NCBI GenBank assembly: GCA_002699025.1
Contig: PABA01000177.1
Coordinates: 1-64,000 of the forward strand
Origin: Sandaracinus sp.
GTDB lineage: Bacteria > Myxococcota_A > Polyangia > Polyangiales > Houyiibacteriaceae
DNA length: 64,000 nt
Reading direction: 5' to 3'
Shown one piece after another: positions 3,308 to 62,423 of this stretch. A program made the translations under genes and the position numbers. Below the pieces are notes generated by a model. The model searched no databases. It was given only the letters and a program-made list of their open reading frames with translations, and was not told where the DNA came from. Positions within the stretch are counted from its first letter, which is position 1, and each line of letters opens with the position of its first letter.

Positions 3308-3658
3308 ATGAGCCCCTGGCAGCGCCTCGCCCACGACGTCGGCAAGTACGTCGCGCGCGCCGCCCGGAACCTCCCCGCGAGCGGCCCCGTCCCCGCCGTG
3401 CTCGTCGGCATGCTCGTCGACGATCTCTTCGCCCTCCGGGACGGCCAGCCCGCCTCCGCCGTCTTCGCCGAGCTCCGCGCGGAGCTCGAAGAGCGGGGCG
3501 AGGAGCCGCGCCTGGACGCGGTCGAGGCGCACCTCGTGGCCATCGACGCCCTCGAGGAGGCCGTGCGCCGAGGCGAGGACGGCGCCGTCCGCGCGGCAGC
3601 CGAGCACGCGTGCGCCGTCGAGGCGGAGCTCCGAGCGCTCGCGGAGGCCCGAGCGTGA
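3308..3658 (+). CDS. Small all-helical protein, possible phosphotransfer partner
   Basis: This 116-residue protein starts at ATG 3308, chosen because GAGGGGG lies about 6 bases upstream; an in-frame ATG at 3269 would add 13 residues. It is predicted almost entirely helical and opens with an amphipathic segment containing His-Asp (LAHDVGKYVARAARNL). I recognise no named domain. Position is informative: it lies between a receiver-like protein and a receiver-activator fusion, and its TGA overlaps the next GTG by four bases (GTGA). A dedicated Hpt-like or partner protein is possible, but the HxLKG signature of classical Hpt domains is absent, so this stays inference. Confidence 0.6.
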   Translation: MSPWQRLAHDVGKYVARAARNLPASGPVPAVLVGMLVDDLFALRDGQPASAVFAELRAELEERGEEPRLDAVEAHLVAIDALEEAVRRGEDGAVRAAAEHACAVEAELRALAEARA

Positions 3659-5355
3659 GCGCGCCGAAGGTGCTCGTCGTCGACGACGGAGACCGCTACG
3701 TGGAGCTCTTCCACGCGCTCCTCCGCGACTACGAGTACGCCACCCGCTGCGAGCTCGCCGGCCCCTGCTGGGAGTGCCCGCACCGCGCGGGCTGCACGCT
3801 CACCCACGCCCACGACTGGGCCGAGACGCAACAGGCCCTGGCGCGCCACCCCGACGTGGACGTCGTCCTCCTCGACGTGGCCTTCGACCTGCCCGTCGAG
3901 CGCCTGCTCGAGGTCCCGGGCGCGCCGGATCTCGAGGCCCGCCGCCGACGCCAGGGTCTCGCGATCCTCGAGCGTCTCCGAAAGCGTCGCGCGGACCTCC
4001 CGGTCGTGCTCATGACCTCCGCGGCCGAGCTCGGCCTCGAGGAAGCGGCGCCGCTCGCGGCGGACGAGTTCCTGACGCTCGCGGGCGCCGACGCCTTCGA
4101 CGCGCGCGCCCTCGGCCTGCTCGTCGAGCGCATCCTCGCGCGCCGGCGCGCGAGCCTCGTGCCCGCCGAGGGCGGCGACGGCGAGGGCTATGTCTGGGGC
4201 GCGAGCCCGGCGATGCGGCGCCTCCGTCGGGACGCGCGCACGCTCGGGCGCACCTCGCTCCCGGTGCTCGTGCTCGGCGAGACCGGCACGGGCAAGAGCG
4301 CGCTCGCGGAGCGGGTCGTTCATCGGGCGGCGAAGCGGGGCGGGCGCTTCGTGTCCGTGGATCTGAGCGCGCTCCCCGAGAGCCTCGTCGCGTCCGAGCT
4401 CTTCGGCGCCGCGCGGGGGGCCTTCAGCGGTGCCCAGGAGCGCCCGGGGCGCTTCGAGGAGGCCGACGGGGGCACCCTCTTCCTCGACGAGATCGGCAAC
4501 CTGCCGCTCGAGGCGCAGCGCCTGCTGCTGCTCGTGCTCCAGGAGAAGCGGGTGACGCGGCTCGGGGAGAACCGGCCCCGGCCCGTCGACGTGAAGCTCG
4601 TGGCGGCGACCCACGCGGACCTCGAGGCGGCCGTGCGGGAGGGGAGCTTCCGCGCCGATCTCTACGCGCGGCTGAACCCGGCGGCGCGGCTCGTGCTGCC
4701 GCCCCTCCGCGAGCGGGTGGAGGATCTCGAAGCCCTCGCACGGGTCTTCGTCGAGAGGCTCTTCGCGCGGCCCGGCTCGGACCGGGCGCTCCTCGAGGCC
4801 TACCAGCGTGCGGCCGGGCTCGAGGGGCCGGTGCGCGCGCGGCTCCACGTGGGGGCGGCGCCCGAGGCGGGGGAGGGGGTGGTCTTCGTCTTCGGCGAGG
4901 GCACCCTCGGCGCGCTCCGTCGGCACCCCTGGCCGGGGAACGTGCGCGAGCTGGAGCTCCTCGTGGCGAACGCGACCCTGATGGCGCTCGCGGACGCGGC
5001 CGAGGCCGTGGAGCAGGGGCGGCGTTCACCCTTGCCGCATGCCGTGCCTGTGCCCGCGCGGCTCGTCCGGGAGCTGCTCGCGGGTTCGTGGGTCGGGGAG
5101 GAGCGTGGCGCCATGGCGGCGGGAGTGGCCGGAGAGCCGCCGCCGGGGGCCCAGCTGCGGGACGTGGCCCGGGAGCTCGAGCGACGGCACTTCGAGCGGC
5201 TCTTCCAGGAGACGGGGGGCGACTTCGAGGCCATGGCGGCCCGGTTGCTCCTGGGCGAGCCGGCGACGAACGCCCGGCGGGTGCGGATGCGCTTCAACCA
5301 GCTCGGTCTCTCGGCGCGCGCGCTGCGCCATGATGTTGCTGACGGTATCGAATGA
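3655..5355 (+). CDS. Sigma-54 activator with Cys-containing receiver domain
   Basis: A 566-residue NtrC-type enhancer-binding protein starting at GTG 3655. Residues 1-165 form an atypical receiver with putative phosphoacceptor Asp74 (VVLLDVAFD). It has an unusual four-Cys segment, C32-x5-C38-x2-C41-x5-C47, and an insertion like that of the 2764 gene. The AAA+ domain has Walker A GETGTGKS (208-215), a GAFSGA loop in place of the canonical GAFTGA, Walker [10 protein letters not shown] and the [11 protein letters not shown] segment. A Fis-like DNA-binding end follows (TGGDFEAMAARLLLG). It should activate sigma-54 RNA polymerase. A strong -24/-12 element lies 55 bases after its stop codon, ahead of the next gene, which is the obvious candidate target. 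Confidence 0.9.
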   Translation: MSAPKVLVVDDGDRYVELFHALLRDYEYATRCELAGPCWECPHRAGCTLTHAHDWAETQQALARHPDVDVVLLDVAFDLPVERLLEVPGAPDLEARRRRQGLAILERLRKRRADLPVVLMTSAAELGLEEAAPLAADEFLTLAGADAFDARALGLLVERILARRRASLVPAEGGDGEGYVWGASPAMRRLRRDARTLGRTSLPVLVLGETGTGKSALAERVVHRAAKRGGRFVSVDLSALPESLVASELFGAARGAFSGAQERPGRFEEADGGTLFLDEIGNLPLEAQRLLLLVLQEKRVTRLGENRPRPVDVKLVAATHADLEAAVREGSFRADLYARLNPAARLVLPPLRERVEDLEALARVFVERLFARPGSDRALLEAYQRAAGLEGPVRARLHVGAAPEAGEGVVFVFGEGTLGALRRHPWPGNVRELELLVANATLMALADAAEAVEQGRRSPLPHAVPVPARLVRELLAGSWVGEERGAMAAGVAGEPPPGAQLRDVARELERRHFERLFQETGGDFEAMAARLLLGEPATNARRVRMRFNQLGLSARALRHDVADGIE

Positions 5356-28116: not shown

Positions 28117-28132
28117 TGCAACGCCCGGGCCG
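28117..28132 (-). promoter_or_regulatory. Sigma-54 -24/-12 promoter of the 28102 operon
   Basis: On the minus strand CGGCCCG-N4-TTGCA has GG and GC at exact GG-N10-GC spacing with a consensus TTGCA. The expected start is near 28106, four bases before the ATG. It is back-to-back with the promoter at 28286-28301, with three dyads between them. Confidence 0.7.
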
Positions 28133-28161: not shown

Positions 28162-28222
28162 TGGACCGGGCCGGAACGGCCGCCGTCCCGTTGGCGAACG
28201 CGCGCCGTCCCACGCTGGAACA
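28162..28222. promoter_or_regulatory. Three 22-bp-phased enhancer dyads between divergent EPS promoters
   Basis: Dyads of the form CGTYCC-N5-GGAACG lie at 28162-28178 (TGGACC-N5-GGAACG), 28184-28200 (CGTCCC-N5-CGAACG) and 28206-28222 (CGTCCC-N5-GGAACA). Starts are exactly 22 bp apart, two helical turns, so the sites share a DNA face. They sit 40-125 bp from the two divergent sigma-54 elements, the normal range for activator sites. Confidence 0.65.
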
Positions 28223-28263: not shown

Positions 28264-28299
28264 GTCCGGTCGCTCGTCCGGTCGCTGGCCCGGACGCTG
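28264..28299. repeat. 12-bp tandem repeat overlapping a sigma-54 element
   Basis: GTCCGGTCGCTC (28264-28275), GTCCGGTCGCTG (28276-28287) and GCCCGGACGCTG (28288-28299) are three tandem 12-bp units. The last supplies most of the -24/-12 element at 28286-28301, so the promoter may have arisen by repeat expansion, or the repeat may make the match fortuitous. Confidence 0.6.
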
Positions 28300-28301
28300 C
28301 A
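28286..28301 (+). promoter_or_regulatory. Sigma-54 -24/-12 promoter of the 28315 gene
   Basis: TGGCCCG-N4-CTGCA has GG at 28287-28288 and GC at 28299-28300. The ATG at 28315 lies 14 bases past the element, so the predicted leader is about three bases; no Shine-Dalgarno sequence is visible. Confidence 0.65.
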
Positions 28302-28753: not shown

Positions 28754-28791
28754 CGTTCCAGAACGGTACGGCCCCGACCCGGCCTGGAACG
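28754..28791. promoter_or_regulatory. Two 21-bp-phased enhancer dyads
   Basis: CGTTCC-N5-GGTACG at 28754-28770 and CGACCC-N5-GGAACG at 28775-28791, start to start 21 bp. The first also contains the perfect palindrome CCGTTCCAGAACGG (28753-28766). They lie 42-79 bp upstream of the sigma-54 element at 28833. Confidence 0.65.
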
Positions 28792-38412: not shown

Positions 38413-38428
38413 TGCAGCGGGCGTGCCG
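38413..38428 (-). promoter_or_regulatory. Sigma-54 -24/-12 promoter of the flippase operon
   Basis: On the minus strand CGGCACG-N4-CTGCA: GGCACG is a consensus -24 element and CTGCA a good -12. The expected start near 38402 is two bases before the flippase ATG (38400). Confidence 0.75.
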
Positions 38429-38574: not shown

Positions 38575-40530
38575 ATGACCACCCCCCTCGCGCTGCCCCG
38601 TCCCGGAACGCTCCGTCCCGCATTGGAACGGCTCCTCGGCCACCGGGCCTTCGTGCCCGGCGTGGCTCTCCTCGGCCTCCTCGCGCGCCTCGCCCTCGTG
38701 GGCCTCCTCGGCGGCGAGCTCCGCTTCTGGGACGAGCGCGACTACGACCGCATCGCCCGGGCGCTCCTCGCGGGGGAGGGCTTCGACCGGGGCTTCGGTC
38801 CGACGGCGTTCCGGCCGCCGGGGCAGCCCGTCTTCCTCGCGGCGCTCCAGGCGCTCGGCGCCACCGCTCGGATGGTGGAGGCGGCGCAGGCGCTCCTGCT
38901 CACGCCGCTCACCTTCCTCGGGTCCCGGCTCGCGCGCGAGCTCGGCGCCCGGCCGGCGGCGGTGGGCGCGGTCGCGGCCGCCATCGCGCTCCACCCGGGC
39001 CTCGCCTACGGGAGCGCGACGCTCTTCCCGGTGGTCGGGACGGCGCTCCTCCTCGGCCTCGGGCTCCCGCTCGCGGCCCGCGCCGTGCGTCGGGGTCGGG
39101 TCCGGGCCGCGCTCGGGGGCGGGCTGGCGCTCGGGCTCGCGGCCTCCTTCACGCCCTACTTCGCGCCGCTGCCGCTCCTCGCCGCCGGGCTCGCCGCGCG
39201 CCGGGCCCCGCGCCGCCGCCTGGCCGTCGCGCTCGCTCTCGCGCTCGTCGGCCTCGCGCCGACCGGCGCCTGGGTGCTGCGCAACGCCATCGTGCTCGGC
39301 AGCCCGACCCTGGGTACGCACGGCGGGTACAACCTCGCGCTCGGCGCCAACGATCGGGCGACGCCGCGGAGCGGCAACCACATCGAGCCCGACCGGCCGG
39401 CGAGCCTGCCGGCCGACGAGCCGGGGCGCGACGCGGCCATGCGCGCGGTGGCTCGACGTTGGATCGCGGCGCACCCGGGGCGCTGGTTGGGGCTCGCGGC
39501 CGGGCGCGCCGTCGCGGTGCTCGACTCGGCCGGGCGCCCGACGGCGGCCCGCGCCGACTTCGGCGTGGCCGCGCAGCTCCTCGGGGGCGCGCTGAGCGCG
39601 CTGGTGCTCCTCGGGCTGGTCGGGCTCTGGCGGCGGCGGCGGGACCCGCGGGCCTGGCTCGTCGCGGCGGCCTTCGCGCTGGTCCTGGCGGCGGCGGCGA
39701 GCAGCATCGTCAAGCCGCGCTTCCGCTTCCCCCTCGACCCGCTGCTCATCGCCTTCGCGCCGGCGGCCTTCGGCTCCCGCCCGCGCCCCGGGCGCGAGGC
39801 GACGCTCAGCGCAGGCCGTACTTCTTCAGCTTGCGATAGACGGTCGTGCGGCCGATGCCGAGCTGCCGCACCACCTCGGCGACGTTCCCGTCGCAGCGCT
39901 CGAGCGCCTCGACCAGCGCCCGGCGCTCGAGCTCCTCCATGCTCAGCGGCCCGCCCGCTCCCTCGGCGCCGGCGCCGGCCGGGGCTCCGGGCTCCTCCCC
40001 CGGCCCGTCGGTGCCCGCCGCCGCGGCCTCGCGGATGCGCGGCGGCAGGTCCTCCAGGCGCACCAGGCCGTCCCGGCACACCACCAGCGCGCGCTGCACG
40101 GCGTTCTCGAGCTCGCGCACGTTGCCCGGCCAGCGGTGCCGCCGGAAGAGCGCCACCACCGCGTCGTCGAGCCGGGGCGGCGGCTCGCCGCCGTGCTGCG
40201 CCAGGAAGCGTCGCGCCAAGAGCAGCACATCGTCGCCCCGGGCGCGGAGCGGCGGCACGTCCATCTCGAACACGGCCAGCCGGAAGAAGAGGTCCTCCCG
40301 GAAGCGCCCCGCGGCCACCTCGCTGGCCAGGTCCCGATGGCTCGCGGCGACGATGCGGATGTCGACGCGGATCTCCTCGGCGCCCCCGATGCGGTGGAAG
40401 CTCCGCTCCTGCAGCACGCGCAGCAGCTTCGCCTGCAAGCTCGCGCTCAGCTCGGCGACCTCGTCGAGGAAGAGCGTGCCGCCGTCCGCCTGCTCGAAGC
40501 GCCCTGCCCGGCGTCGGTCTGCGCCGGTGA
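38575..40530 (+). CDS. Membrane glycosyltransferase (GT-C, ArnT/PMT-like); no stop before the convergent gene
   Basis: The frame from ATG 38575 gives about 410 convincing residues. Approximately ten hydrophobic helices follow an early periplasmic acidic pair ([23 protein letters not shown]), as in GT-C lipid-linked sugar transferases (ArnT/PMT). From about 39800 the same frame continues without a stop to 40530, running antisense to the sigma-54 activator as Arg/Pro/Ala-rich, unstructured sequence. The real end is probably near 39839, where an adjacent frame stops, which would need a one-base shift; the extent given is the literal open frame. It acts at the inner membrane, using a polyprenyl-linked sugar. 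Confidence 0.65.
38594..38630. promoter_or_regulatory. Two 20-bp-phased enhancer dyads inside the 38575 gene
   Basis: TGCCCC-N5-GGAACG (38594-38610) and CGTCCC-N5-GGAACG (38614-38630), 20 bp apart, within codons 7-19. They lie about 165-220 bp upstream of the flippase promoter and just downstream of that at 38522. Sigma-54 activators work from either position. Confidence 0.55.
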
Positions 40531-41302: not shown

Positions 41303-41346
41303 TGCACGCGATGGGATGGCGCGCGCGCGGCAGGTAGACTCGCGGC

Positions 41347-41891
41347 ATGCTGGGCGTCGTCTTCACGGAGCTCGTCGAGATGATCGAAGGGGAGCTCCCC
41401 GCGGGCGAGGCCGAGGCCGTGATCCAGCCCGGCTCGCTCTCGCGGGGCGGGGCCTACACGGCCCTCGGCCGCTACCCGGCCGAGGAGCTCGTGGGCATCG
41501 TCCAGCGCCTCGCTGCGCACAGCGGGCAGCCCCTGGAGCACTGGCTCCGCGCGTTCGGGGCGCACCTCTTGCCCCGCTTCATGGAGCGCTGGCCGGCGCT
41601 CTTCGAGGGTGTGGAGAGCGCCTTCGACCTCCTCGAAGGGCTCGAGGATCGGGTCCACGCGACCGTGCGGCGGCTCTACCCGCAGGCCGAGCTGCCGCGC
41701 TTCGAGGTCCGGCGCGACGGGGACCGGGAGCTGGTCCTCGTCTACCGCTCGGAGCGGGCGATGGCGGATCTCGCGCGCGGGCTCCTCGAAGCCGCCGTGG
41801 CCCACTGGGGGGAACCGATGGAGATCGGGGAGGAGGATCTCTCGGGGGGCGCCCGCACCGAGGTCCGCTTCACCTTGAGGTCCCGGTCGCC

Positions 41892-41895
<4 letters not shown>
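41347..41895 (+). CDS. H-NOX haem-NO/O2-binding sensor
   Basis: A 182-residue cytoplasmic haem sensor. The proximal haem ligand is His104 ([13 protein letters not shown]), followed by Pro117 and the haem-propionate-binding Tyr133-x-Ser135-x-Arg137 (VYRSER). The spacing equals that of the Thermoanaerobacter protein (H102, P115, Y131/S133/R135) shifted by two. The position matching its distal O2-stabilising Tyr140 is Leu142, so the pocket is predicted NO-selective. The stop overlaps the kinase gene start by four bases (GTGA), the usual H-NOX/kinase pairing, so it should modulate that kinase on binding NO. Confidence 0.88.
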
Positions 41896-44519
<2,624 letters not shown>

Positions 44520-45613: not shown

Positions 45614-45650
45614 CGTCCCGATGCGGGACGGGCGGGCCCAGGCTGGAACG
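45614..45650. promoter_or_regulatory. Two 20-bp-phased enhancer dyads
   Basis: CGTCCC-N5-GGGACG (45614-45630, a perfect palindrome) and GGGCCC-N5-GGAACG (45634-45650), 20 bp apart, 30-67 bp upstream of the decarboxylase -24 element. Same pattern as at the other EPS promoters. Confidence 0.6.
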
Positions 45651-49336: not shown

Positions 49337-49352
49337 TGCAGCGACCGTGCCC
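49337..49352 (-). promoter_or_regulatory. Sigma-54 -24/-12 promoter of the modification operon
   Basis: On the minus strand GGGCACG-N4-CTGCA with exact spacing. The predicted start near 49326 is two bases before ATG 49324, and no Shine-Dalgarno sequence is visible. Confidence 0.75.
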
Positions 49353-49393: not shown

Positions 49394-49434
49394 CGTTTCG
49401 GAGTGGAACGGCGCGACCGGCCCGCTTCGGAACG
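49394..49434. promoter_or_regulatory. Two enhancer dyads midway between divergent EPS promoters
   Basis: CGTTTC-N5-GGAACG (49394-49410) and CGGCCC-N5-GGAACG (49418-49434), 24 bp apart. They lie 41-97 bp from the sigma-54 element of each divergent unit, so one pair could serve both. Confidence 0.65.
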
Positions 49435-49485: not shown

Positions 49486-49501
49486 TGGCCGCCCGATTGC
49501 A
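49486..49501 (+). promoter_or_regulatory. Sigma-54 -24/-12 promoter of the 49514 operon
   Basis: TGGCCGC-N4-TTGCA, GG at 49487-49488 and GC at 49499-49500; ten of twelve defined bases match the sigma-54 consensus. The ATG is 13 bases downstream (49514), giving a leader of about two bases. Confidence 0.78.
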
Positions 49502-53789: not shown

Positions 53790-54446
53790 TCAGTAGGCGC
53801 CGCGGCCCGTGAGCACGGCGGGGACGGTGGCGGCGAGGATGCGCAGGTCGTCGAGGGGGCGGGCCGTGTCGACGTAGGTCAGGTCGAGCTCCACCTGCTC
53901 CTCGAAGGAGAGGTCGCTGCGCCCCTGCACCTGCCAGAGGCAGGTCAGGCCGGGGCGCACCTCCATCCGGCGCAGGGCGCGCGGGTCGTAGAGGTCGCAC
54001 TCGGAGAGGGGCGCGGGCCGGGGGCCGATGAGGGTCATGTCGCCGCGGACGACGTTGAAGAGCTGAGGGAGCTCGTCGATGCTCAGCTTGCGGATGACGC
54101 GGCCGACGCGGGTGATGCGCGGGTCGCGCTTCAGCTTGAAGCGCGCGCCGCTCGTGGCCTGCTGCGCCTGGACGAGCTTCGCGCGGATGGTGTCCGAGTC
54201 GACGACCATGGAGCGCAGCTTCCACATGCGGAAGGGGCGCCCATGGAGCCCGCCGCGGAGCTGCGAGTAGAGCACCGGGCCCCGGCTCTCGAGCTTGATG
54301 AGGAGCGCGACGAGGCCGAGGAGGGGCGCGAGGAGGAGCAGGCCGAGGCCGGCGCCGAGCACGTCGACGGTGCGGCGGAGCGCGGGGGCGAGGTCGGCGG
54401 AGACCAGGCGGAGGCGGCGGAGGATGGGATGAAGGGAGGGGGTCAT
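53790..54446 (-). CDS. Initiating sugar-phosphate transferase (short, PglC-like)
   Basis: A 218-residue polyprenyl-phosphate sugar-1-phosphate transferase with one N-terminal hydrophobic helix (VDVLGAGLGLLLLAPLLGLVALLIKLE). It has the family core: GPVLYSQLRGG, FRMWKLRSM, RVGRVIRKLSIDELPQLFNVVRGDMTLIGPRP and PGLTCLWQVQGRS. It lacks the extra N-terminal helices of WbaP/WcaJ, so it is the minimal form. It loads the first sugar onto undecaprenyl phosphate, starting EPS synthesis. Coupled to the Wzc-like gene by ATGA overlap. Confidence 0.93.
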   Translation of the reverse strand: MTPSLHPILRRLRLVSADLAPALRRTVDVLGAGLGLLLLAPLLGLVALLIKLESRGPVLYSQLRGGLHGRPFRMWKLRSMVVDSDTIRAKLVQAQQATSGARFKLKRDPRITRVGRVIRKLSIDELPQLFNVVRGDMTLIGPRPAPLSECDLYDPRALRRMEVRPGLTCLWQVQGRSDLSFEEQVELDLTYVDTARPLDDLRILAATVPAVLTGRGAY

Positions 54447-56383
54447 GGCTGTCTCTCGGGGGTGGGGGCCGCGGCGTGGAGGGCGCGGCGGCGGCGGGAG
54501 CGGGCGGCCCAGAAGGCCTCGACCTCGCCGACCTGGTCGGAGAGCTCTTCAAGGTCCGGGCCAACCCCGACCAGCGCGAGGCCGACGCCCTCCGCGCGAC
54601 CGATGCGCGCGGCGATCCCCGCGACGGTGGCGGCGCCGAAGGCTCCCGCGGGCACGAGCACGAGCACCCGATCGGCGTCCCGGCAGGCGCGTCGGAGGGC
54701 GGCGCCCCGTTCCGGTCCGGGCCAGGCGCGGAAGCGCTTCGTTCCGACCTGGAACGGGCGTGGCGCCGCGGACGCGTCCGGGGGCTCTTCGCGCGGCGCG
54801 CCTTCCGCGACGGGCGCGAGCCGGGCGAGGGCCACGCCGACGGAGCGGAGCGCGGGGTCGGCGGCGACGACGAGGGTCTCGCCGCCGCCGACCCCGGCGA
54901 GCTCTTCGAGGTCCCCGACGAAGGCGCACCAGGTCTCCGCGGTGGCGTCGTCCTCGTCGGCCTCCTCGCCGCGCGGCGTCCAGCGCGTGCTCGCCACGAC
55001 CGGAAGGCGAGCCCACCAGGCGTGCTCTGCGGGCGTGCGGAGCCGCAGACCGCGGAGCTCCCGGAGCAACACGCCGACGAGCGCGAGGAGCATCGCGAGC
55101 AGCGGGAAGGCCACGGCGAGCGGCCGCCGCATGGAGCTCGCGGGGAGGTCGGGCGCGCTCGGCGCGGCGAGCAGGCGCACGTCCGCCGGCGCCGCTCGGG
55201 CCCGCGCCTCCGCCGCGAGCGCGCGGGCCTCGAGCTCCCCGAGCGCCTCGGCGCTGACCGTGACGGCGGCGAGGTGGGCGGCGGCGCGAGTCTGGAGCGA
55301 GCTGAGCTCCTGCAGCCGGCTCGCGCTGGCGTCGGCGAGCTCCGCGAGGGCCTCCCGCCGCGAGGAGGCCGCGTCGGCGGCGGCGGCGGCCTGGCGAAGC
55401 GCCGACTGCCCTTCGTCCCAGTGCGGGTTCCGCCCCACCGTGCGGCTGGCGCGGACCGCCGCCCCCCCGGCGACCCGGGCGCGCAGCGTCGCGATCTCCG
55501 CCCCCAGCGCGCGCACCTCCGGATGCGCCTCCCCGAGCGCGGCGAGGAGCGACGCGCGCTCCCGCTCCGCCTCCGCGAGCCGCAGCCGATCCGGCGAGGT
55601 CTCCTGCTCCTGGAGCACCGCCATGGGCGTCTCGCCGGCGAGGAGCTGCCGGAGCCGCTCCGTGCGCGCCGCCTCCGCCTCGGCCTCCGCTCCCGCCGCC
55701 TCGGCCTCGGCCCGGAGCGCGGCGAGGCGCTCGATCAGCAGCCGCGCCTCGAGGGGCAGATCTGCGACGCGATGCTCTCGCCGGAAGGCGTCCCAGACCT
55801 CGCGCGCGGCCTCGTGCTCGGTCCGCGCCGCGGCCACCTGGCCCCGTAGGGCCTCGGCCTCCTTCCGCCGCGCCTCCGCGCGCACGCGCGCCCGCTCCTC
55901 CAGGAAGGCGTCGACGACGGCCTCGGCCAGCGCCGCGGCGTCTTCGCCCGAGTCCGCCGCCGCCGTGAGCGTGAGCACCCGCGACTCCTCGCTCGCGCCC
56001 ACCTGGATGCGCGCGCCGAGCTTCGGGAGCGTCGTCTCGAGCCCGAGCTCCTCGCGCACCTGCCGCAACACCACCGGGACCTTCACGCTGTCCGCCACCG
56101 TCCGGAGCTCGCGCGCCGGGTCGGACATGGCCTCGCCCTCGCCCTCCAGCTCGGGCGGCTCCCAGAGCAGCACGGCGACCGCCTCCCAGCGCGCGTCGAC
56201 GACGAGCTTGGCGACCAGGGCGCCGGCGACGGCGCCGAGCACGCCCGCCACCGCCACCCAGCGCCGGCCCCGGCGGAGGGCGAGCCAGAGGCGCGCCAGG
56301 GAGACGGGCTGCCCCGCGCGCGCCGGCGCGGCCTCGTCGGTCGCCGGCGTCGCCCCGGAGGCTCGTTCGGGGGGCGCGTACAT
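54443..56383 (-). CDS. Wzc-like chain-length/polymerisation protein with degenerate kinase domain
   Basis: A 646-residue inner-membrane protein. Wzz-type N-terminal part: a first membrane helix after residue 35 (WVAVAGVLGAVAGALVAKLVV), a long periplasmic coiled coil (Ala/Glu/Arg heptads, about 190-420) and a second helix (PLAVAFPLLAMLLALVGVLL). The C-terminal cytoplasmic region (about 480-640) looks like the ATPase part of a BY-kinase but lacks a clear Walker A (GGGETLVVAADPALRSVGVA) and a Tyr-rich tail. It probably controls EPS chain length and links to the Wza-like exporter. Confidence 0.8.
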   Translation of the reverse strand: MYAPPERASGATPATDEAAPARAGQPVSLARLWLALRRGRRWVAVAGVLGAVAGALVAKLVVDARWEAVAVLLWEPPELEGEGEAMSDPARELRTVADSVKVPVVLRQVREELGLETTLPKLGARIQVGASEESRVLTLTAAADSGEDAAALAEAVVDAFLEERARVRAEARRKEAEALRGQVAAARTEHEAAREVWDAFRREHRVADLPLEARLLIERLAALRAEAEAAGAEAEAEAARTERLRQLLAGETPMAVLQEQETSPDRLRLAEAERERASLLAALGEAHPEVRALGAEIATLRARVAGGAAVRASRTVGRNPHWDEGQSALRQAAAAADAASSRREALAELADASASRLQELSSLQTRAAAHLAAVTVSAEALGELEARALAAEARARAAPADVRLLAAPSAPDLPASSMRRPLAVAFPLLAMLLALVGVLLRELRGLRLRTPAEHAWWARLPVVASTRWTPRGEEADEDDATAETWCAFVGDLEELAGVGGGETLVVAADPALRSVGVALARLAPVAEGAPREEPPDASAAPRPFQVGTKRFRAWPGPERGAALRRACRDADRVLVLVPAGAFGAATVAGIAARIGRAEGVGLALVGVGPDLEELSDQVGEVEAFWAARSRRRRALHAAAPTPERQP

Positions 56384-56742
56384 CAGGCCGTGTCCTCCGC
56401 GGGGCGCCGCGCAGGCGCCTCGAGCGCCTCGGCGGAGCGCGCCCGGTCGCCGCTCCGCGCGACGGTGACGAGACCCCCGGCGGCGCGCCGCCGCGGCGCC
56501 GAGGCGCGGAGCGCCGGCCGGAGGGGCCGCCGCGGCTCCAGGCTCCCGGCCGTCCCGAAAGGGCGCACCCGGCTCGGGGATCGGTGCACCGTTTCGGGAT
56601 CGCCCGCCCGCGCGCAGCCCGTGGACTGGACCTCGAGCTCGTGCTCCCGAGCGCGCCGCGGCTCCGCGGCACCCGCCGCGAAGCATGGGCATCCCCCGTG
56701 GATGTCGGGGGGGAAGAGCTCGTGGAGGAGGGCGAGTCGCAT
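56383..56742 (-). pseudogene. Truncated GT4 N-terminal remnant, coupled to the Wzc-like gene
   Basis: A 119-residue frame from ATG 56742. The start MRLALLHELFPPDIHGG and the segment HELEVQSTGCARAGDPETV resemble the first 60 residues of GT4 enzymes. Everything after is low-complexity Arg/Pro/Ala and no donor-binding lobe exists. Its stop TGA shares a base with the Wzc-like ATG (TGATG), so it is still positioned as a leader cistron. It is best read as a decayed glycosyltransferase kept for translational coupling; a genuine short protein cannot be excluded. Confidence 0.5.
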
Positions 56743-56807
56743 GGTGGGTCCCGTCGGGGAGGCGGCGCGGAGGGGGCACGGAGCGCGCGTCGGCGCCCAC
56801 CTCGAAC

Positions 56808-56824
56808 TGGCACGTTGCGTGCCA
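56808..56824. promoter_or_regulatory. Perfect palindrome matching sigma-54 elements on both strands
   Basis: TGGCACG-TTG-CGTGCCA is a perfect 7-bp inverted repeat. Each strand has a consensus -24 TGGCACG and, at exact GG-N10-GC spacing, a GC (-12 GTGC). It lies between the divergent chain-length operon (56742, minus) and export gene (56837, plus). AGGGAGG lies after it, six bases before the plus ATG. It may be a two-way promoter or simply an operator for a dimeric repressor. Confidence 0.6.
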
Positions 56825-56836
56825 GGGAGGACGGCC

Positions 56837-57820
56837 ATGCGACGCTCGCTCCCCACGCTCCTGCTCCTCGTCTCCGGCCTCGGCTGCGCCCCCGAGCTCC
56901 CGGCGGCGCCGGCCCACCCCACGCCCTCCGCCTTCGTCGCCGCGGAGCGCGCGCCACTCCCCGGCCTGACCTCCGATCCTCCCGCGCCCTTCACGCTGCA
57001 GCCCGGCGACCAGCTCACGCTCCGCACGCTCAGCGTCCGGCCGCTCGAGGCGGAGGTCTCCGTGGATCCGGCCGGCCGCCTGCACGTGCCCCTGGCCGGC
57101 GCGGTCGAGGTCGGCGGGCTGCCCCTCGACGCGGCCGAGCGTCGCATCGAGGGGCGCCTCGCCCCCTACGATCGTTTCGCTCGCGTGAGTCTTCACGTCC
57201 GCGAAGCGCGAGGCCACCTCGCCTCGGTCGCTGGCGCCGTGCGGGAGCCCGGCCGCTACGTCGTCGAGGGGGATCTGCGCGTCTCCGATCTCCTCGCGCG
57301 CGCCGGTGGCCCGCGCGCGCTCGAGAGCGACGAGGTGGAGTGGGTCGAGCTCGCCGATCTCGCCGGCGCCTCCCTCGTGCGCGACGGTGAGGCGCTCCCC
57401 ATCGACGTCTCCCTCGCGGCCCGCGGCCGGCCGCATCACGACGTGCGCGTGCACGCCGGCGATCTCCTCTACGTCCCCCCGGCGCGCGGTCGGCACGTGA
57501 CCGTGCTGGGCGAGGTCGGCGAGCCGAGGGTGCTCCCCTTCAGCGAGGGGCTCCGGCTCACGGCCGCGCTCGCCCGCGCCGGGGGCATGACCGACGACGC
57601 CGACGAAGCCGACGTACGCGTCCTGCGCGGGCCCCTCTCGGGCCCGGCCGTCTACCGCGCCAACCTCTCCGCGCTGGTGCGCGGCGAGGCGCCGGACGTG
57701 GCGCTGGCTCCGGGCGACGTCGTCTACGTGACGACCGAATGGCTCGCGGAGGTGGGCGAGGTGATCCAGCGCCTCGCCCCGGCGCTCGGCGGCGCGGCCC
57801 TGCTGGGGCTCGCGCGCTAG
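56837..57820 (+). CDS. Wza/BexD-like polysaccharide export lipoprotein
   Basis: A 327-residue lipoprotein with signal MRRSLPTLLLLVSGLGC (lipobox GLGC). A polysaccharide-export (PES) domain lies at about 50-140 (FTLQPGDQLTLRTLS, VDPAGRLHVPLAGAVEVGGL), followed by two SLBB domains (ASVAGAVREPGRYVVEGDLRVSDLLARAGG and VTVLGEVGEPRVLPFSEGLRLTAALARAGG). It forms the outer-membrane EPS pore and is the partner of the divergent Wzc-like protein. AGGGAGG precedes ATG 56837. Confidence 0.93.
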   Translation: MRRSLPTLLLLVSGLGCAPELPAAPAHPTPSAFVAAERAPLPGLTSDPPAPFTLQPGDQLTLRTLSVRPLEAEVSVDPAGRLHVPLAGAVEVGGLPLDAAERRIEGRLAPYDRFARVSLHVREARGHLASVAGAVREPGRYVVEGDLRVSDLLARAGGPRALESDEVEWVELADLAGASLVRDGEALPIDVSLAARGRPHHDVRVHAGDLLYVPPARGRHVTVLGEVGEPRVLPFSEGLRLTAALARAGGMTDDADEADVRVLRGPLSGPAVYRANLSALVRGEAPDVALAPGDVVYVTTEWLAEVGEVIQRLAPALGGAALLGLAR

Positions 57821-61892: not shown

Positions 61893-62423
61893 ATGGAGCG
61901 CGCGAAAACTGCCCTGGTCGACTCGGACCCGACCGTCGACGCCTACCTCGAGCTCGTGCGGGCGCACGAGGAGATGGCGACGGCGCTGGCGCGGGTCTTC
62001 CAGGGGCATGGAGTGACCCAGCAGCAGTACAACGTCCTCCGCATCCTCTACGTGCGCGACAAGGGCGACGGGCTGCCGTGCTCGGCGATCTCCGCGCGCC
62101 TGGTCAACCGGGTGCCGGACATGACGCGCCTGCTCGACCGGCTCGAGAAGGCCGGCCTCGTCACGCGCCATCGCTGCACGAGCGATCGGCGCGTCGTGCG
62201 CACGCGGCTCTCGGAGGAGGGCACGGCGCTGGTCGAGCGGATCCACGGGCCGCTCCACGCCGCCCACGCGCGCCTCGCCACCGAGCTCGATCCGGGGGAG
62301 CTCGACGAGCTCACGCGCCTGCTGCGCAAGCTGCGCAACGGCGTCGCCCGGGCCGAGGACGAAGACGCCTCCGCCGCCCAGCGGGCCGCGGCCGAAGCGA
62401 CGCCGGTCGAAGCGTCGGCCTGA
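61893..62423 (+). CDS. MarR-family transcription regulator
   Basis: A 176-residue winged-helix regulator. It has a helical N-terminus (AYLELVRAHEEMATALARVF), HTH with LPCSAISARLVNRVPDMTRLLDRLEKAGLV, and the wing RHRCTSDRRVVRTRLSEEG (the conserved D-x-R). As a dimer it would bind a palindrome such as the one at 61842-61856. The ligand is unknown. It is divergent from the pseudokinase gene. The C-terminal 25 residues are a low-complexity extension. Confidence 0.92.
   Translation: MERAKTALVDSDPTVDAYLELVRAHEEMATALARVFQGHGVTQQQYNVLRILYVRDKGDGLPCSAISARLVNRVPDMTRLLDRLEKAGLVTRHRCTSDRRVVRTRLSEEGTALVERIHGPLHAAHARLATELDPGELDELTRLLRKLRNGVARAEDEDASAAQRAAAEATPVEASA

Follow-up and report, generated by a model that had tools for sequence, protein, structure and literature searches.

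The palindrome TGGCACG-TTG-CGTGCCA, which lies immediately before a wza-like gene in the analyzed window (the whole stretch of Sandaracinus DNA, 64,000 nucleotides), is probably a sigma-54 (RpoN) -24/-12 promoter, a reading to which we assign a probability of roughly three in four. Its wza transcript is predicted to start about 3 nt before the ATG and to be leaderless or nearly so. The use of sigma-54, the start point at 56834, and leaderless translation are what we infer from the site itself, its spacing, its conservation, its membership in a class of similarly placed sites, and the presence of an RpoN gene.

The palindrome and its neighbors

The palindrome was found at 56808–56824, exactly where the initial annotation had placed it, and it extends by one more pair on each side (table 1). 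As had also been proposed, TGGCACG matches the -24 element at 7/7 positions on the plus and minus strands alike, and on both strands a GC occupies the -12 position, correctly spaced as GG-N10-GC. The -12 element is otherwise weak: GTGCC agrees with TTGCW in the T, G, and C, but not in the first T and the final W, and each strand scores 10/12 against TGGCAYGN4TTGCW. The palindrome can be read both ways because reversed TGGCAC supplies the GC of the -12 element at the right spacing. An RpoN gene is present in the genome (Sigma54_DBD match, E 5e-66). With +1 placed 12 nt past the C of the GC, the predicted wza leader is 3 nt.

Table 1.— Sigma-54-like sites and flanking genes in the window, followed by the sites compared before wza genes (G000 is the window genome).
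Feature	Position	Strand	Remarks
Sigma-54-like site CGGCCCGGGCGTTGCA	28117..28132	-	ATG at +4, glycosyltransferase
Sigma-54-like site TGGCCCGGACGCTGCA	28286..28301	+	ATG at +3, 139-aa gene
Sigma-54-like site CGGCACGCCCGCTGCA	38413..38428	-	ATG at +2, 495-aa gene
Sigma-54-like site TGGCGCGCGCGCGGCA	41317..41332	+	ATG at +4, haem-NO-binding (HNOB) gene
Sigma-54-like site GGGCACGGTCGCTGCA	49337..49352	-	ATG at +2, 404-aa gene
Sigma-54-like site TGGCCGCCCGATTGCA	49486..49501	+	ATG at +2, glycosyltransferase
wzc-like chain-length determinant gene	54443..56383	-	Weak match to Wzz, slightly below the Pfam cut-off; 38% identity to G051 gene
Glycosyltransferase-start remnant	56554..56742	-	63 aa; 49% identity to intact divergent G051 gene, E about 1e-12; ATG 56742
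Palindrome CTGGCACG-TTG-CGTGCCAG	56807..56825	both	17 bp plus one extra pair each side; 8-bp arms
Sigma-54-like -24/-12 site of wza, TGGCACGTTGCGTGCC	56808..56823	+	10/12, GG-N10-GC; predicted +1 56834, ATG 56837
Minus-strand reading of palindrome, TGGCACGCAACGTGCC	56809..56824	-	10/12; predicted +1 56798, 56 nt before glycosyltransferase-remnant ATG; activity uncertain
Shine-Dalgarno-like GGGAGG	56825..56830	+	Upstream of predicted +1; probably not transcribed from this promoter
wza-like outer-membrane polysaccharide exporter	56837..57820	+	Lipoprotein signal, Poly_export and SLBB domains
G000 site TGGCACGTTGCGTGCCA			12 nt to wza ATG
G051 site TGGCACGCCCCGTGCCG			10 nt to wza ATG
G070 site TGGCACGAACGGTGCCG			11 nt to wza ATG
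G464 site AGGCATGCAACGTGCAG			12 nt to wza ATG
G075 site TGGCACGACGCACGCAA			14 nt to wza ATG
G060 site TGGCACGGCGCGCGCAC			14 nt to wza ATG
G068 site TGGCATGTCGCTCGCAC			14 nt to wza ATG
G081 site TGGCATGGACCATGCCA			11 nt to wza ATG
G040 site TGGCATGATGCGCGCCA			6, 15, or 21 nt to ATG depending on start chosen; 9/12, leader outside 0–5 nt
G487 site GGGCATGTCGGTTGCTA			12 nt to wza ATG

The initial annotation described the setting as lying between divergent Wzc-like and Wza-like genes. This is right for wza on the plus strand, but the minus-strand neighbor proved to be a decayed glycosyltransferase gene, whose open frame continues to a TGA overlapping the wzc ATG, and wzc comes only after it. 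The same layout, with wzc and glycosyltransferase on the minus strand and wza on the plus strand, was observed in G051, a member of another family of the order, in which the glycosyltransferase is intact. Within the wzc coding region of the window, a perfect CGTTCCGACCTGGAACG is present at 54740–54756.

It had also been noticed that GGGAGG falls upstream of the predicted start, which is the case, and an operator role had been deduced from it. That deduction is not supported: near-leaderless spacing is the common arrangement at sigma-54 sites of this order (see below), so the position of the Shine-Dalgarno-like motif fits a leaderless promoter rather than an operator. In the proposed mechanism, sigma-54 RNA polymerase would bind the plus strand and be opened by some enhancer-binding protein, wza transcription would begin about 3 nt before the ATG, and GGGAGG would remain outside the resulting leaderless or nearly leaderless mRNA. 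On the other hand, GGGAGG has a suitable position for wza and would be of use had transcription begun further upstream.

A search for further copies, as the initial annotation had suggested, revealed two exact occurrences of TGGCACGN3CGTGCCA in the 9.24-Mb Polyangiales-type genome. The second (L001, 1501–1517) is in the spacer of divergent PEGA-repeat-type and DUF2330-like genes (named from their translations); it has no leaderless-spaced ATG in either direction, and a better sigma-54 site is close by. The genome's two one-mismatch copies (L003 and L004) are both within coding sequence. In the window, the motif class shows no enrichment (3 observed vs. 6.8 expected, up to three mismatches), and genome-wide it is rarer than its control (53 vs. 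166 for the reversed pattern, up to two mismatches). With no such enrichment in this GC-rich genome, abundance was dropped as support for the palindrome, and the functional case is built on position and conservation.

Spacing to the start codon in the window and across the order

Seven sigma-54-like sites in the window, the wza site among them, are followed by an ATG at +2 to +4 (table 1), when gene starts are estimated by third-position GC. Of the window sites scoring at least 10, 5/9 have a gene-start ATG at +1 to +5, as do 7/57 of those scoring at least 9, whereas eleven control offsets gave totals of 0 and 2, respectively. Three other window sites (28833+, 38522+, and 45583-) have longer leaders of 27–35 nt. 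The leaderless-spaced site ahead of the HNOB gene (41347–41892, plus strand) is followed, after that gene, by a hybrid histidine kinase gene (41877–44516, plus strand) with receiver and Hpt domains.

Tandem CGTYCC-N5-GGRACG sites, 20–24 bp apart, were detected at 28184–28222, 28754–28791, 38594–38630, 45614–45650, and 49394–49434. These pairs, which are likely enhancer sites of one activator, are located 65–220 bp upstream of five sigma-54-like places, but not upstream of 56834 or 41343. In agreement with the initial annotation, which saw no CGTYCC-N5-GGAACG pair near the palindrome, the spacer and the region ahead of the wza start contain no CGTYCC-N5-GGRACG match with up to two mismatches; the nearest one has two mismatches and is inside the wza coding region. 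Thus, wza may be under a different activator from these loci. An activator gene is present at 3658–5352 and is not linked to the palindrome site.

We then analyzed the strict consensus in 177 genomes of the order. TGGCAYN5TTGCW followed by an ATG after 11–14 nt occurs 458 times, compared with 34 for the reversed pattern; with the ATG after 31–34 nt, the corresponding counts in the same genomes are 154 and 29. Among the matches listed for the 11–14 nt set, the gap is 12, 13, or 14 nt in 99/100. The gap histogram over 5–34 nt, again among the matches listed and with overlapping ATGs counted separately, peaks at 12–15 nt in this order, with none at 11 nt, whereas in a second order of the phylum it is flat; the latter histogram excludes a set of near-identical G328 copies and a few listed lines. 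That genome, which belongs to another order, carries about ten such copies of TGGCACGAYGTTTGCA...CGACTCGATG. Shine-Dalgarno-like motifs are rarer at gaps of 12–14 nt (7/46) than at 25–34 nt (16/34) among the matches listed (Fisher P = 0.003). The strict consensus at leaderless spacing has no match in the window genome itself, and its sites are accordingly regarded as degenerate members of the class.

Palindromic sites at other loci also show leaderless spacing. One of the sites observed, in G139 (L063), is a palindromic TGGCACGGGCCGTGCCT at this spacing with a FliD-type flagellar gene downstream. In G060 and G068 (L181 and L182), a minus-strand sigma-54-like AGGCACGNGCGCTGCA precedes a small unnamed gene, with 13 nt to its ATG.

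Sites before wza in other genomes

A GG-N10-GC site scoring at least 10/12 with a 0–5 nt leader precedes 9/41 other wza orthologs (G051, G070, G464, G075, G060, G068, G081, G487, and a Kofleriaceae MAG). Over 1000 dinucleotide shuffles under the same criterion, the mean was 0.038 and the maximum 2, and the other leader bins contain 0–1. The element is absent from about 32/41 orthologs, including most of the window's own family. Ten sequences were compared (table 1). Ten loci had a site in the shuffle test, and nine of these were included, together with G040, whose site is weaker. GGCAYG and GC are kept in this set; conservation of these letters is partly built in because the sites were found by scanning, but the fixed distance to the ATG is not. 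The -12 elements include near-matches such as GTGCA, TCGCA, and TTGCT.

The dyad might instead be an operator, at which a dimeric regulator other than sigma-54, bound beside the start codon, controls wza and the divergent gene by repression or activation. The arms are perfect in the window, and 7/7 and 6/7 pairs are matched in G081 and G051, respectively; the site is 6–14 nt from the wza start, a position at which a bound repressor could prevent transcription or initiation, and a MarR-type gene is located at 61914–62420. However, when conservation of dyad symmetry across the orthologs was taken as the mark of an operator, the symmetry was found not to be kept: one to five of the five free pairs match in the ten sites, position 6/12 is often uncompensated, and five genomes (G487, G464, G060, G068, and G075) have lost it while retaining GGCAYG, GC, and the ATG distance. 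Moreover, G487 has the textbook -12 element TTGCT, the divergent spacer of G051 (38 bp) is too short for two conventional promoters with ribosome-binding sites, and hundreds of unrelated consensus sigma-54 sites share the same spacing. An operator is thus unlikely in our opinion. In G081 (L183), right before the wza ATG, the palindrome is embedded in an inverted repeat with perfect 22-bp arms, which may be real or an assembly effect.

A combination, in which the site is a sigma-54 promoter and a regulator on the same dyad competes with the polymerase, appears more doubtful still. Some wza sites are more symmetric than chance suggests (by hand count, 2/10 have all five free pairs), but this excess is weak because one of the two was picked for being palindromic, and the need for two-way reading would account for the symmetry as well.

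It is very improbable that the dyad acts as an RNA hairpin tuning translation beside the Shine-Dalgarno-like motif: the plus strand can form an 8-bp stem with a 3-nt loop adjoining GGGAGG, but the fold is no better than that of shuffled sequence (z -0.57), the stem is missing in G487, G464, and G060/G068/G075 despite their promoter letters, and a hairpin role would require transcription to begin upstream of the dyad. A functionless coincidence in GC-rich DNA, with which the lack of enrichment in window and genome and the coding location of both one-mismatch copies would agree, hardly deserves consideration, given that a similarly placed element precedes wza in nine other genomes (0.04 expected) and that the 10.7 Mb of G051 contain a single TGGCACGN3CGTGCC, 10 nt before the wza ATG.

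Two directions and comparison with known systems

Under the sigma-54 promoter reading, the dyad would be a compact form of promoter, one site serving both reading directions. Start codons lie 10–14 nt from the palindrome on both strands in G051, G070, and G078. In G051, the predicted leader is 1 nt for wza and 2 nt for the glycosyltransferase; in G070, they are 2 and 5 nt; and in G078, where the flanking genes are unrelated (an RCC1-repeat protein and a secreted-looking protein), they are 4 and 2 nt. G487 has two separate sites in place of one, each at leaderless spacing. In relatives such as G051 and G070, the palindrome is therefore placed such that it could start both wza and the divergent glycosyltransferase as leaderless transcripts, and it is plausible that one palindrome drives both divergent genes.

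The situation in the window is different. The initial annotation had proposed a sigma-54-like element on both strands and a single site for both operons. For the plus strand, the proposal is supported by GGCAYG and GC at a fixed distance from wza, by the class of window sites, and by the order-wide counts, and the idea of a shared site agrees with the start codons of the three genomes above. On the minus strand of the window, firing is uncertain because the partner gene, a glycosyltransferase, has decayed and its ATG is 65 nt from the palindrome; bidirectional firing here is not supported by the placement of start codons. Any minus-strand transcript would cross the glycosyltransferase remnant toward wzc. 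A broader suggestion is that Polyangiales possess a class of leaderless sigma-54 promoters whose palindromic versions are truly bidirectional, with a single 17-bp site giving rise to a leaderless mRNA in each direction; we offer it tentatively and would lean against it at present.

If these ideas are true, activator-dependent sigma-54 transcription would be commonly coupled to leaderless translation across a bacterial order, which we did not find described in the open-licence literature searched, and the spacing rule (GC, about 13–16 nt, ATG) would help to infer gene starts and sigma-54 regulons from sequence data. Within the portions of the literature covered by our search, palindromic sites would be the first sigma-54 counterpart of bidirectional promoters; in the accessible text of open-licence papers, none was found that describes leaderless or bidirectional sigma-54 promoters.

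The site resembles known sigma-54 (RpoN) -24/-12 promoters in TGGCAYG, in the GG-N10-GC spacing, and in the presence of rpoN in the genome; a link between sigma-54 and polysaccharide genes is also known (PMC3162934). It differs from usual ones in that the predicted start is 2–4 nt before the ATG, without a ribosome-binding leader, and in that the site is palindromic here and in a few relatives. The Caulobacter flagellar flaN/flbG genes are likewise divergent units under sigma-54 with shared regulatory sites; they have two separate promoters, whereas the palindrome would serve both genes as a single site.

Promoters of the -10 type that yield leaderless mRNAs, and bidirectional promoters with symmetry, are already known. 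Passages of two papers describe "-10 next to ORF" promoters in Deinococcus-Thermus (PMC12340547) and an extended -10 leaderless motif in Bradyrhizobium (PMC4842269). The arrangement is alike, with an element directly before the start codon giving an mRNA without leader; their elements are of the -10 type, whereas the one studied here is of the -24/-12 sigma-54 type and would need an activator. Shared -10 symmetry has also been described in bidirectional promoters, in which one pseudo-symmetric promoter serves two orientations (PMC12825309, citing Warman et al. 2021), and the passages on them do not mention sigma-54. The symmetry of such promoters resides within a shared -10 element, whereas here the -24/-12 element would carry it, and the transcripts in both directions would lack a leader.
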